Translations under genes and position numbers: made by a program
From: Aliarcobacter thereius LMG 24486
Lineage (GTDB): Bacteria; Campylobacterota; Campylobacteria; Campylobacterales; Arcobacteraceae
Direction of reading: 5' to 3'
DNA: 64,000 nt
Assembly (NCBI RefSeq): GCF_004214815.1
Contig: NZ_CP035926.1
Location: forward strand, 186,001 to 250,000
Part shown: in pieces, positions 35,867-40,679 of the stretch
How positions within the stretch are numbered: the first letter of the stretch is position 1
How the letters are laid out: each line of letters opens with the position of its first letter
The notes under the pieces: model-generated
Told to the model about the DNA's origin: nothing
Database searches by the model: none
What the model saw: only the letters and a program-made list of their open reading frames with translations

Positions 35867-37336
35867 ATGCAAAACAGTGCACATATTGAGTATGACTACT
35901 CTGTTGCTAAGTATTTTACATTTGCGACAATCTTGTTTGGTATCATTGGTATGACAGTTGGTGTTGTACTTGCTTTTCAATTAGCTTTTCCAGAGCTAAA
36001 CTATTTAGCAGGAGAGTATGGTACATTTGGTAGATTAAGACCATTACATACAAATGGAGTTGCATTTGGATTTACACTAAGTGGTATCTTTGCTGGATGG
36101 TACTACATCTCTCAAAGAGTTTTAAAAGTATCATTAAAAGAGTCACCTTTTTTAATGTTTATTGCAAAACTACACTTTTGGTTATATTTCATAACAATTC
36201 TTTTAGCTGTTGTTACACTATTCATGGGTATTACAACTTCAAAAGAGTATGCTGAATTAGAGTGGCCTTTAGATATTTTAGTTGTTATTTGGTGGGTTTT
36301 ATGGGGTATTTCTATTTTCGGAATAATTGGAATTAGAAGAGAAAGAACTTTATATATTTCTATTTGGTATTTTATAGGTACATTTATTGCAATTGCAATG
36401 TTATATCTATTTAACAATATGGAAGTTCCAACTTATTTTGCTTCAGGTGGTTATGGTTCATGGATTCACTCTGTATCTATGTATTCAGGTACAAATGATG
36501 CTATTGTTCAGTGGTGGTATGGGCACAATGCTGTTGCATTCGTATTTACTACTCCGATTATTGCATTAATTTATTATTTCTTACCAAAAGAATCAGGACA
36601 AAATATTTATTCTTATAAATTATCAATCTTAGCATTCTGGGGATTACTATTTGTATATTTATGGGCTGGTGGACACCACCTTATTTATTCAACTGTTCCA
36701 GATTGGATGCAAACTATGGGTTCTGTAATGTCAGTTGTATTAATTTTACCATCATGGGGATCTGCTATTAATATGCTTTTAACTATGAAAGGTGAGTGGA
36801 ATCAGTTACAATCTAATACTGTAATTAAATTTATGATATTAGCATCAACATTCTATATGTTAACAACTCTTGAAGGACCAATTCAGTCAATTAAATCTGT
36901 TAATGCTATTGCACACTTTACTGATTGGATTCCAGGACACGTACATGATGCTGTTTTAGGTTGGTTAGTGTTTATGGTTATGGCAGCATTATTTCATATG
37001 GTTCCAAGAATGTATAAAAGAGAGTTATACTCTAAATCATTAATGGAAACACAATTTTGGTTACAAACTGTTGGTATCATCCTTTACTTTACATCTATGT
37101 GGATTGCAGGTATTACTCAAGGTATGATGTGGAGAGCTTATGATGAGTATGGTTCATTAGTTTATTCATTTATTGATACAGTTACAGTTTTACATCCATA
37201 CTATACAATTAGAGCGGTTGGTGGGTTAATGTACTTAATTGGATTCTTTATGTTCGCATACAATATCTATAAAACAATTAGATGTGGTAGAATTTTAGAT
37301 AAAGAACCAGCAAATGCAACTCCAGTAGCTGCTTAA
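35867..37336 (+). CDS. ccoN: cbb3-type cytochrome c oxidase subunit I, CcoN
   Basis: CcoN is the catalytic subunit of the high-affinity, proton-pumping terminal oxidase, with low-spin heme b and a heme b3-CuB centre. The 489 residues hold about 12 membrane helices. Conserved histidine regions include LRPLHTNGVAFGF, WWYGHNAVAFVFT, WAGGHHLIY and GHVHDAVLGW. The ATG at 35867 is six bases from AGGAGG; the TTG just before it is not needed. It is the first gene of a microaerobic respiration operon. Confidence 0.97.
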   Translation: MQNSAHIEYDYSVAKYFTFATILFGIIGMTVGVVLAFQLAFPELNYLAGEYGTFGRLRPLHTNGVAFGFTLSGIFAGWYYISQRVLKVSLKESPFLMFIAKLHFWLYFITILLAVVTLFMGITTSKEYAELEWPLDILVVIWWVLWGISIFGIIGIRRERTLYISIWYFIGTFIAIAMLYLFNNMEVPTYFASGGYGSWIHSVSMYSGTNDAIVQWWYGHNAVAFVFTTPIIALIYYFLPKESGQNIYSYKLSILAFWGLLFVYLWAGGHHLIYSTVPDWMQTMGSVMSVVLILPSWGSAINMLLTMKGEWNQLQSNTVIKFMILASTFYMLTTLEGPIQSIKSVNAIAHFTDWIPGHVHDAVLGWLVFMVMAALFHMVPRMYKRELYSKSLMETQFWLQTVGIILYFTSMWIAGITQGMMWRAYDEYGSLVYSFIDTVTVLHPYYTIRAVGGLMYLIGFFMFAYNIYKTIRCGRILDKEPANATPVAA

Positions 37337-37351: not shown

Positions 37352-38017
37352 ATGTTTCATTGGTTAGAACAAAGACCGTTTTTCTTTGCGGTAATGGTAT
37401 TTATATTTGTTGCATTTGCAGGAATTATCGAGGCAATTCCTGATTTTGCAAAGCAAAGTCGTCCAACAGTTGGGACTAAACCTTATTCAGTTTTAGAGCT
37501 TGCAGGTAGACATGTATATATAAAAGATTCATGTAATGCTTGTCACTCACAGTTAATTAGACCATTCAAAGCTGAAACTGATAGATATGGTATGTATTCT
37601 TTATCTGGAGAATATGCTTATGATAGACCATTCTTATGGGGATCAAAAAGAACAGGACCAGATTTAATGAGAGTAGGAAACTATAGAACAACTGACTGGC
37701 ATGAAAACCATATGTGGGAACCTAAAGCAGTTGTACCTGGAAGTATTATGCCAGCGTATAGACACCATTTTAGTAATATTGCAGATTTAGAAACTGCATA
37801 TGCGGAAGCTGTTACAATTAAAAAAGTATTTAATACACCTTATGATCAAGAAGGTATGCCAACTCTTGGAACTTGGGAAGAAGCAAAAGCTAATATGTTA
37901 GCTGAAGCTCAAGAGATTGCAAGTGGTATGAAAAATGAAAATGTAAAACAAGCTGTTGCAAATGGTGAGATTCCTGAAATTGTTGCATTAATTGCATATT
38001 TAAATTCTTTAAAATAG
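37352..38017 (+). CDS. ccoO: cbb3 oxidase monoheme subunit CcoO
   Basis: CcoO is a membrane-anchored cytochrome c passing electrons to CcoN. An N-terminal membrane helix (about 10-28) is followed by the heme site CNACH at 61-65 and a methionine ligand region near VVPGSIMPAYRH. The 221 residues are standard. It is preceded by AAGGAG and placed 15 bases after ccoN. Confidence 0.97.
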   Translation: MFHWLEQRPFFFAVMVFIFVAFAGIIEAIPDFAKQSRPTVGTKPYSVLELAGRHVYIKDSCNACHSQLIRPFKAETDRYGMYSLSGEYAYDRPFLWGSKRTGPDLMRVGNYRTTDWHENHMWEPKAVVPGSIMPAYRHHFSNIADLETAYAEAVTIKKVFNTPYDQEGMPTLGTWEEAKANMLAEAQEIASGMKNENVKQAVANGEIPEIVALIAYLNSLK

Positions 38018-38026
38018 AGGTTTATT

Positions 38027-38251
38027 ATGGAATATGAAACACTAATAACGATTCAAGGATATGCTAAATTCTTTTTGGTTTTGATTGTATTTATTCTTTT
38101 TTACTCTTATGCATATTCAATATACAAAAGGGATAGAAAAGGAGAGAGAGATTTTGAAAAGTATTCTAAGCTTGTACACGATGATTCTAGTGTTTCAGAA
38201 CCTCTTGAAAAAAGAGAAAAAGAAAAAGATATAGGTAATAAGGAGAAATAA
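38027..38251 (+). CDS. ccoQ: cbb3 oxidase subunit CcoQ
   Basis: The 74-residue single-span protein has a membrane helix at about 13-32 (KFFLVLIVFILFYSYAYSIY) followed by a charged cytoplasmic tail. This is the usual CcoQ form, thought to stabilise the oxidase complex. Its position between ccoO and ccoP confirms the call. Confidence 0.9.
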   Translation: MEYETLITIQGYAKFFLVLIVFILFYSYAYSIYKRDRKGERDFEKYSKLVHDDSSVSEPLEKREKEKDIGNKEK

Positions 38252-38252
38252 C

Positions 38253-39146
38253 ATGAAATCTATGGTTATAGGTGGAATAATTCTTATCATCGCATTAATG
38301 GCAGGAACTTACTTTGTTGCAGGTGATGCTTTTGATACAGGTGATTATATTAATACATTAACATTTTTAGGGGCAGCTGCTATTATTACAATTAGTACTT
38401 TTGTAGTTCTAAAATATGTTAATCAAATGAAAAGTGATAAAGCAAGTGGTGAGCTAGCTGATGAAAACTGGGATGGAATTGGGGAATATAAAAATCCTAT
38501 TCCAGTTGGTTGGGGAATAGCTTATATTGGTGTAATTATTTGGATGTTTTGGTATTTACTTTTTGGTTATCCGACAAATGGATTTTCACAAATTGGTCAA
38601 TGGAATGAAGAAACAATTGATTATAACGCTAAATTTGAACAAAAATGGCTAAATGCAGATGAATCAACTTTAAATGCAATGGGACAATCACTATTCTTAG
38701 TACAGTGTGCTCCTTGTCATGGTGTTGATGCAGAAGGTATTGATGGAAAAGCTCAGAACTTAACAAAAAGAATGAGTAAAGAACAAGTTGAATATACAAT
38801 TAGAAATGGTTCTAATCATTTAGTTAGTGCTTATCCAGGTGGAATGCCTCCAATGATGTTACAAGATGATAAAGAAATTTCTGAAGTATCAACTTATGTA
38901 GCAAATGGGCTTAAAGGTAATCAACCAGATGCTTATGCAACTTGTGCTGCTTGTCACGGAGATAATGGGGAAGGTATGCCTTTTGTTGGACCAAACATTA
39001 AAACTTATGATAATGATGTAGTTCTTGCAGTATTAAAAGATGGTAAAAAAGGGCTTATAGGACATATGCCAAGCTTTAATGAGAGATTAAACGAGACTCA
39101 AGAAAAAGCTTTAGCTTCATTTATTAGAAGTATAGGAGAAGAATAA
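38253..39146 (+). CDS. ccoP: cbb3 oxidase diheme subunit CcoP
   Basis: CcoP receives electrons from soluble cytochrome c. Two membrane helices (about 5-22 and 86-105, with a further hydrophobic stretch at 35-52) precede two cytochrome c domains with heme motifs CAPCHG (152-157) and CAACHG (231-236). The methionine ligands are in the GGMPPMM and GHMPSF regions. The 297 residues are normal. Its stop overlaps the next start by one base. Confidence 0.97.
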   Translation: MKSMVIGGIILIIALMAGTYFVAGDAFDTGDYINTLTFLGAAAIITISTFVVLKYVNQMKSDKASGELADENWDGIGEYKNPIPVGWGIAYIGVIIWMFWYLLFGYPTNGFSQIGQWNEETIDYNAKFEQKWLNADESTLNAMGQSLFLVQCAPCHGVDAEGIDGKAQNLTKRMSKEQVEYTIRNGSNHLVSAYPGGMPPMMLQDDKEISEVSTYVANGLKGNQPDAYATCAACHGDNGEGMPFVGPNIKTYDNDVVLAVLKDGKKGLIGHMPSFNERLNETQEKALASFIRSIGEE

Positions 39147-39391
39147 TGTCAAATAATACACAAATGAATGAAAATGAAAGAGGAATCTTTAAATTACATG
39201 GAATTACTGGTATGTTAATAGCAGTTGTACTACTTTTAACTATTCTTGTAGTTTTAGTATTTAATGGAATTTTAGTTCAACAAAGAGAAGCTACAAATGC
39301 TTACTCTATTAATCAAGATATAAATGCTATAAAAGCAAATAGCAAAGAAAATTATAAACATTACCAAATTGGTAATTCAACTAAGGAGTAG
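39146..39391 (+). CDS. DUF4006-type small membrane protein
   Basis: The 81-residue protein has one membrane helix (about 23-44) with a short head (GIFKLHGITGMLIAV) and a polar tail. This is a conserved gene directly after ccoP in Campylobacterota, known as the DUF4006 family. It is co-translated with ccoP (ATG overlaps the TAA by one base). A role as oxidase subunit or assembly helper is likely but unproven. Confidence 0.8.
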   Translation: MSNNTQMNENERGIFKLHGITGMLIAVVLLLTILVVLVFNGILVQQREATNAYSINQDINAIKANSKENYKHYQIGNSTKE

Positions 39392-39394
39392 AAT

Positions 39395-39487
39395 ATGGAT
39401 AAAATAATTACTATTTTACTAGTAGCTTCAGCTCTTCTAACAATCTATCTTTCATATTTTGATTCAACAAAAGTGTTTGTTGGTTAA
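39395..39487 (+). CDS. 30-residue single-span membrane peptide in the cbb3 operon
   Basis: An ATG with AAGGAG eight bases upstream opens a 30-codon frame: MDKIITILLVASALLTIYLS followed by YFDSTKVFVG. It is one hydrophobic helix with a short polar tail. It sits three bases after the DUF4006 stop and directly abuts the next start, so it is embedded in the operon. By size and topology it resembles CcoM, the tiny extra subunit of Pseudomonas stutzeri cbb3 oxidase; homology is not shown. Confidence 0.7.
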   Translation: MDKIITILLVASALLTIYLSYFDSTKVFVG

Positions 39488-40117
39488 ATGAAAAATATAA
39501 AAAATTTAAAAGTAGGGGTGATTTTTTCACTTCTACTTTTTTTATACACAAATAGCTTTGCTCAAAACTATATAATTAATGATGGAAATTTAATAGATAT
39601 AAGAGCCAAAGATAAGATAATAGAAATAGGTAATGAAGTAAAAAATAGATTAGGTATAAATATTTATGTTTATACAACATCAAACTTAGGTCTTGAAAAG
39701 AATATAAGTACAAAAGATAAAATTGAATATATTAAAATTCATGAAGAAAATATAATTAAAAATATTGAATCTCCTTATGTGTTAATGACTCTATCTTTAG
39801 AAGAGACACATGTAAATTTATATACAAGTGAAGAATTAAAAAAAATAATAGATAAAAATGATATACTAGATGATTATGTTGTGCCACTTTTAGCTTCAAA
39901 AGATAAAAATAGTACAGCGTCAAAAGTTAGTGCTGCTATACTAAATGGGTATGCAGCAATTGCAGATAAATTAGCAGAACAAAAAAATATTGAACTTGAA
40001 AGTAGTATTGGAAATCAAGGAAGAGTAGCTAGTACTATTTGGAGAGTTTTAATCTATTTTGTATTGCTTACTGCACTTTTTGCATATGTTTATGCAGTAT
40101 TAAGAAAGAGAAAATAA
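39488..40117 (+). CDS. TPM-domain-like membrane protein in the cbb3 operon
   Basis: The 209-residue protein has a signal peptide (about 1-25, ending NSFAQ), a periplasmic domain and a C-terminal membrane helix (about 184-203) with a basic RKRK end. The periplasmic part has the pattern of TPM (TLP18.3/Psb32-like) domains: an early LIDIRAKDKI, IYVYTTSNLG, and VLMTLSLEETHVNLYTSEEL. Its place after ccoP and before FixH suggests a role in oxidase assembly or quality control. The family call is tentative. Confidence 0.6.
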   Translation: MKNIKNLKVGVIFSLLLFLYTNSFAQNYIINDGNLIDIRAKDKIIEIGNEVKNRLGINIYVYTTSNLGLEKNISTKDKIEYIKIHEENIIKNIESPYVLMTLSLEETHVNLYTSEELKKIIDKNDILDDYVVPLLASKDKNSTASKVSAAILNGYAAIADKLAEQKNIELESSIGNQGRVASTIWRVLIYFVLLTALFAYVYAVLRKRK

Positions 40118-40118
40118 T

Positions 40119-40679
40119 ATGAAAGAAAGAAACTATTGGCCACTATTTTTTATAGCGATATTTGCCTTTACTGTTTATATGATTATTTGGACAATAATAC
40201 AAGCTATGAATGCACCAGTTATTGAAGATAGAAGCTTTATGCAAAAATATCAATATGTTGATGAAAATTATAATGATATAATGAATGCAAATATTGATTT
40301 CTTAGAGAAATATAAACTAGAACTAAATTTAAATGGAAAGATTTTTCCTCTTACAACAGAAGATATAAAATTTGGACAAAGAGTTATAGAAAAATATTCT
40401 CAACATAAAGATAATTTAAAAATAGGAGAAAATAGTATTCTTTTAACAGTTACGGAGATTAATACTCAAAAGACTATTCCTATTAATTTTGATATTCTTA
40501 TTACAAAAACTATGACAAATGAGAATGATATTGATTTAAATTCTAAAGAATTTAAAGAAGATAATGGAGTTTATAGTTCAAATTTTATTATTTCTGAAAA
40601 AACAAACTGGATAATAACAGGAAAGATAAAAACAGAGGACAAAGAAGGTTATATTTTTATAAAGACAAATGCAAGATAA
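40119..40679 (+). CDS. FixH-family protein
   Basis: The 186-residue protein has a single N-terminal membrane helix (about 7-29) and a periplasmic beta-rich domain. FixH proteins are tied to cbb3 oxidase biogenesis, probably copper or heme handling with the CcoI-type ATPase, and the operon position fits. It overlaps the addB start by 11 bases. ccoG, ccoI and ccoS are not in this window. Confidence 0.75.
   Translation: MKERNYWPLFFIAIFAFTVYMIIWTIIQAMNAPVIEDRSFMQKYQYVDENYNDIMNANIDFLEKYKLELNLNGKIFPLTTEDIKFGQRVIEKYSQHKDNLKIGENSILLTVTEINTQKTIPINFDILITKTMTNENDIDLNSKEFKEDNGVYSSNFIISEKTNWIITGKIKTEDKEGYIFIKTNAR

Follow-up and report, generated by a model that had tools for sequence, protein, structure and literature searches.

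The window analyzed here, a stretch of 64,000 nucleotides from Aliarcobacter thereius LMG 24486, harbors a cbb3-type oxidase operon whose genes all lie on the forward strand in the order ccoNOQP, ccoX, an ORF encoding 30 residues, ccoZ and ccoH. The gene for the catalytic subunit, ccoN (35867-37336), was recognized by TIGR00780 (E 9.9e-208) and ccoO (37352-38017) by PF02433 (E 9.5e-83) and TIGR00781. These are followed by ccoQ (38027-38251), with matches to PF05545 (E 9.5e-7) and, below the cut-off, to TIGR02736 (E 2.1e-14), and by ccoP (38253-39146), which carries the Pfam FixP_N domain and two cytochrome c stretches and matched TIGR00782 at E 1.2e-34, likewise below the cut-off. The DUF4006 gene ccoX (39146-39391) was detected with PF13179 (E 2.1e-27) and by phmmer against CcoX of Campylobacter jejuni (4.7e-13). 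For the two genes that close the operon, the Pfam matches were below the cut-off, namely TPM (E 0.0059) for ccoZ (39488-40117) and FixH (E 0.017) for the FixH-like ccoH (40119-40679), and phmmer related them to C. jejuni CcoZ (6.7e-16) and CcoH (1.9e-7), the phmmer E-values for all three proteins being derived from a small ORF database.

The short ORF between ccoX and ccoZ starts with the ATG at 39395 and ends with the TAA at 39485-39487, giving the 30-residue product MDKIITILLVASALLTIYLSYFDSTKVFVG. A Shine-Dalgarno motif, AAGGAG (39383-39388), is located inside the 3' end of ccoX on the same strand, spaced 6 nt from the ATG. With ccoX ending at 39391 and the following gene beginning at 39488, the base immediately after the stop codon, the strong ribosome-binding site and the exact fit between two genes described in a first-pass annotation of this DNA were both borne out. 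The best 19-residue Kyte-Doolittle mean of the peptide is 2.21 versus 2.28 for the C. jejuni protein CcoY discussed below, and from this hydropathy alone a single membrane helix is predicted. A search of 60 genomes (the own genome and 59 relatives) matched the peptide in all 36 other genomes of its family, hereafter f1, with E-values of at most 7.6e-5; outside f1, one of 23 genomes produced a match, a weak one (E 0.256). With E up to 1 allowed, Pfam returned no family for it, and the single NCBIfam match was a chance one (E 0.033), scoring 14.2 bits where the cut-off is 152. Identity with CcoQ/FixQ was considered and rejected, as the peptide has no FixQ profile match and the operon possesses its own ccoQ at 38027-38251.

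The coding nature of the ORF was examined on 30 loci of family f1, consisting of the own locus and 29 others and comprising 27 distinct DNA sequences. Each of the 30 conserves the ATG start, the TAA stop and the Shine-Dalgarno motif. The reading frame is open in all 27 distinct sequences, while each of the two other frames is open in one, and pN/pS amounts to 0.41 in this frame versus 0.88 and 1.56 in the others; the pooled dN/dS over 310 pairs with unsaturated synonymous sites is 0.32. Gene order is equally constant, with ccoX as the 5' neighbor in 30/30 loci (26 assigned by motif and four by eye) and a gene of at least 150 aa directly on the 3' side in all of them. These observations confirmed, at the level of sequence, that 39395-39487 is a conserved protein-coding gene for a single-helix peptide of 30 residues. 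The earlier proposal of a protein-coding membrane peptide in the cbb3 operon of Campylobacterota thus held, on the conserved frame, the dN/dS, the hydropathy and the gene order, and so did the conservation in related genomes on which it was to be judged. The stop codon of the ORF abuts the ATG of ccoZ, and no base separates the stop from the next ATG in 23 of the 30 loci, an arrangement that would suit an inert peptide whose ORF serves as a leader or for translational coupling to the next gene. The purifying selection on its amino acids (dN/dS 0.32) argues against such a role, which we regard as highly improbable also on the evidence of other families given below.

A counterpart of this gene is known in C. 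jejuni, in which three genes, ccoX (DUF4006), ccoY and ccoZ (TPM domain), lie between ccoP and ccoH (PMC8267372). CcoY (Cj1485), named in 2021, is a single-helix protein of 33 residues. Oxidase activity was abolished when ccoX or ccoH was deleted and lowered when ccoY or ccoZ was, and the role of CcoY is listed by the authors as an open question (PMC8267372). The lowered activity of the ccoY mutant was seen although the cassette drives the downstream genes (PMC8267372), which also speaks against an inert leader ORF. As our reference we used the C. jejuni locus containing the sole exact match of one published primer among 49 genomes of one genus. Four of the seven primer strings tried match this locus exactly. 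Exact matches were not obtained for a pair of screening primers and for a string that includes part of a tail, and the reference genome may thus be somewhat different from that of strain NCTC 11168; the CcoY it encodes has 33 aa, as published.

Taken as a single sequence, the 30-residue peptide reached a best phmmer E-value of 0.0025 to other CcoY ORFs and produced no match to CcoY of C. jejuni. Profile comparison by hhalign, for which single-pair E-values are rough, yielded 82% (E 1e-5) between the f1 peptide set and Campylobacter CcoY, 96.6% (E 5.2e-10) between the f1 set and CcoY of other families, and 99.4% (E 6.6e-22) between Campylobacter and other-family CcoY, versus 2% for a control against CcoX. 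A profile built from CcoY of other families, without any f1 member, was additionally run against 41 whole genomes in six frames and, with E 1e-3 as the threshold, matched 24 of them. Within the A. thereius genome (1,915,080 bases in one contig) it produced a single match, the ORF at 39395-39487 (E 1.3e-4), which spans positions 4-22 of the 33 profile positions and excludes the tail; two of the three f1 genomes were found, one (G024) being missed at E 1e-3. The peptide and C. jejuni CcoY have in common the place between ccoX and ccoZ, the size (30 vs 33 aa), the single central helix, the profile similarity and the terminal Gly, whereas their direct identity is low. In most other families the short C-terminal tail reads W-x-V-x-T-P-N-H-L-F-V-G and in f1 F-D-x-x-K-V-F-V-G; Y and F-D-x-x-K stand here in place of the Trp and T-x-N-H-L. 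The conservation of a C-terminal motif across families likewise disfavors a mere leader ORF.

Given this profile similarity and synteny, with the direct single-sequence comparison not significant, the peptide is very probably the CcoY orthologue of A. thereius. By its sequence it is a divergent CcoY, a new member of a known protein type, and an identity is thereby given to a very small gene that has no credible match in Pfam or NCBIfam. The first-pass annotation had supposed an unrecognised subunit; this does not stand, its orthologue having been named in 2021 and its deletion found important for oxidase activity (PMC8267372). In the open-licence PMC literature on CcoY/Cj1485c, CcoX/CcoZ/CcoH and the cbb3 structure of Arcobacter or Campylobacterota, that paper was the only one judged relevant to CcoY, though others may exist, and nothing useful on Helicobacter pylori counterparts was met there. 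The name cj1485c occurs also in PMC7099621.

The likeness to CcoM of Pseudomonas stutzeri, also put forward in the first reading of the locus, was upheld in part. CcoM is a single-helix cbb3 subunit of 36 residues (PMC10433244), on which the stability of the complex is said to depend (PMC8267372). Top-down MALDI mass spectrometry has revealed a new small cbb3 subunit in P. stutzeri (PMC9264385). The two peptides agree in approximate length (36 and 30 aa), in having one helix and in hydropathy, but no sequence relationship between them is detectable: hhalign of the CcoY profiles against CcoM (5djq chain N) gave 0.3% and 0.1% with one column aligned, and a PDB search with the CcoY profile, allowing E up to 10, drew no match, even though 5djq_N is among the chains there. 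Membership of the peptide in the CcoM family is therefore a reading to which we attach almost no credence. In P. stutzeri, ccoM is not known to be part of the ccoNOQP operon. Other small single-helix proteins encoded beside an oxidase, like CcoY, are CydX of Escherichia coli and CioY of C. jejuni, the latter a protein of 34 aa that binds CioA (PMC11955535); these belong to the bd-type/CioAB oxidases, unlike CcoY, which belongs to a haem-copper cbb3 enzyme.

Within the order, CcoX was present in 167 of 199 genomes, and in nearly all loci examined CcoY adjoins it. A CcoY ORF directly follows CcoX in 29 of 30 loci read (27 by pattern, L044 and L047 separately), and in the thirtieth, L054 (G096), one gene stands between the two. 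From a motif, we take this gene (L054/L184) to be ccoG-like; the same insertion occurs in G053 (L183) and G070 (L185), also of family f18, so that Y-Z-H is separable from NOQP-X. Among 80 named loci, one of which ends too early, the 79 of sufficient length comprise 74 having an ORF with the expected end, four (L114, L130, L148 and L165) in which the last residue or more differs, and one (L120) in which X and Z are present and no Y ORF was seen. We also inspected 21 genomes, namely 20 listed ones among the 32 that lack CcoX and one without CcoY, and found ccoN over the cut-off in two; in both, the gene runs towards a contig end and the remaining DNA is too short for O, Q, P and X. In the same set, a ccoN fragment located at a contig end was found in one further genome, and three genomes have weak matches only. 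CcoX, and CcoY with it, thus goes with ccoN as far as examined.

A class-wide search used a profile that includes the window's own peptide and is hence circular for f1; it matched 316 of 397 genomes at E up to 1. Above 1e-3 there were 42 listed matches, leaving 274. Families f13 or f15 account for 34 of these 42 weak matches and for 19 of the 20 misses listed, and 61 further genomes had no match. Family f13 includes 60 genomes with CcoX, from which 30 loci were taken and CcoX was located in 28. All 28 display an adjoining ORF that is 34-52 aa long and contains a single hydrophobic stretch, the three longest stemming from early alternative starts, and in profile comparisons these ORFs resemble CcoY moderately (80% and 63%). 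The idea that f13 has no CcoY was consequently dropped, given a single-helix ORF at the CcoY place in 28/28 loci. The f13 ORF (L217-L246) is strongly diverged, with F-I-P-x-M-x-L-x-V replacing T-P-N-H-L-F-V-G, and is missed by the CcoY profile. Together, these results extend CcoY from C. jejuni to most of the examined families of an order of microaerophiles.

Reading by eye revealed a second cbb3 operon in two genomes of the window's genus, each with its own CcoX and CcoY. The order is N-O-P-X-Y, without Q, in G029 (L207, 1456-6456) and N-O-Q-P-X-Y in G022 (L208, 1397-6622, reverse strand of L208). Within the 7 kb read, Y is followed by neither Z nor H in either operon; the next gene after Y is the same unrelated gene in both, which we presume to resemble a nitrite/sulfite reductase. 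This co-duplication of X and Y, observed in two genomes of one genus, bears on two alternatives. A leader ORF is again disfavored, ccoY being kept in two operons in which no ccoZ follows. Moreover, a factor common to both enzymes would need no copy of its own, which favors a small bound subunit.

The other alternative is that CcoY acts transiently, as an assembly factor in biogenesis or supercomplex formation together with CcoX, CcoZ and CcoH, and is not a bound subunit. Its gene is encoded among X, Z and H, and the fold of CcoZ is suggestive in the same direction. The AlphaFold model of CcoZ (pLDDT 87.7) retrieved the TPM domain 2kw7 in a fold search (Z 15.3, rmsd 2.8, 132 aligned), as well as the mycobacterial III2-IV2 supercomplex subunits 8hcr_J, 6hwh_O, 8ovc_V and 6adq_J (Z 11.1-11.5, rmsd 2.5-2.7, 108-112 aligned), and Psb32, an assembly factor of photosystem II, shares the TPM fold too. 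This result agrees with published modelling of CcoZ (PMC8267372), while the PDB sequence search with the CcoZ profile returned two chance matches only; a common fold predicted from a model is by itself no proof of CcoZ function. Mass spectrometry of the C. jejuni supercomplex listed CcoN, O, P, H, Z and X, and neither CcoY nor CcoQ (PMC8267372). A missing CcoY would suit an assembly factor, but since CcoQ is likewise absent from the list, this absence does not decide the subunit question. Set against these points is the persistence of Y beside X in the two second operons that lack Z and H after it, a shared factor needing no second copy. A transient assembly role appears possible to us, if rather doubtful.

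The bound-subunit reading, which we infer from gene content, predicts that CcoY goes with the oxidase core and not with CcoZ and CcoH. The peptide would insert into the membrane as one helix, probably with its N-terminus inside, followed by the short conserved C-terminal tail. In the other families all flanking K/R residues are on the N side, and 77 of the 81 distinct sequences have more of them there than on the C side; the N flank holds even more D/E (93) than K/R (79). Family f13 is richer in K/R on the N side in 26 of 28 sequences, and in f1 the flanking K/R are tied in 24/24. This topology is weakly supported, and an N-terminus inside is no more than likely for CcoY. The helix would pack next to CcoN/CcoP/CcoX as a small bound subunit, with a stabilising effect on the enzyme like that of CcoM and CydX on other oxidases. 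Taken as a whole, the statement that the peptide is the CcoY orthologue and that its one helix packs beside CcoN, CcoP and CcoX as a stabilising bound subunit is the explanation that we incline to as the probable one, with reservations. A broader version holds that CcoY may be a bound cbb3 subunit throughout Campylobacterales, of an origin independent of CcoM, kept upon operon duplication even without CcoQ, CcoZ and CcoH, and recognised mainly by its position in far-drifted families; to this we would assign an even chance.

The reference locus also permitted a closer view of the published C. jejuni deletions. On this locus (L179, G267), the ccoY ATG at 1497-1499 overlaps the end of ccoX, and for the cj1486c (ccoX) deletion the primer of the downstream arm begins at 1501, the stretch concerned being 1280-1500 on the reverse strand of L179. 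With this primer start, the construct as read from the primers loses the start codon of ccoY together with ccoX, and the absence of activity in the ccoX mutant may accordingly be a joint effect of X and Y. The cassette promoter drives the downstream genes, and no ccoX complementation is mentioned in the available excerpts (PMC8267372). We therefore raise a caution on the construction of the published ccoX mutant; the published ccoY deletion itself is exact.
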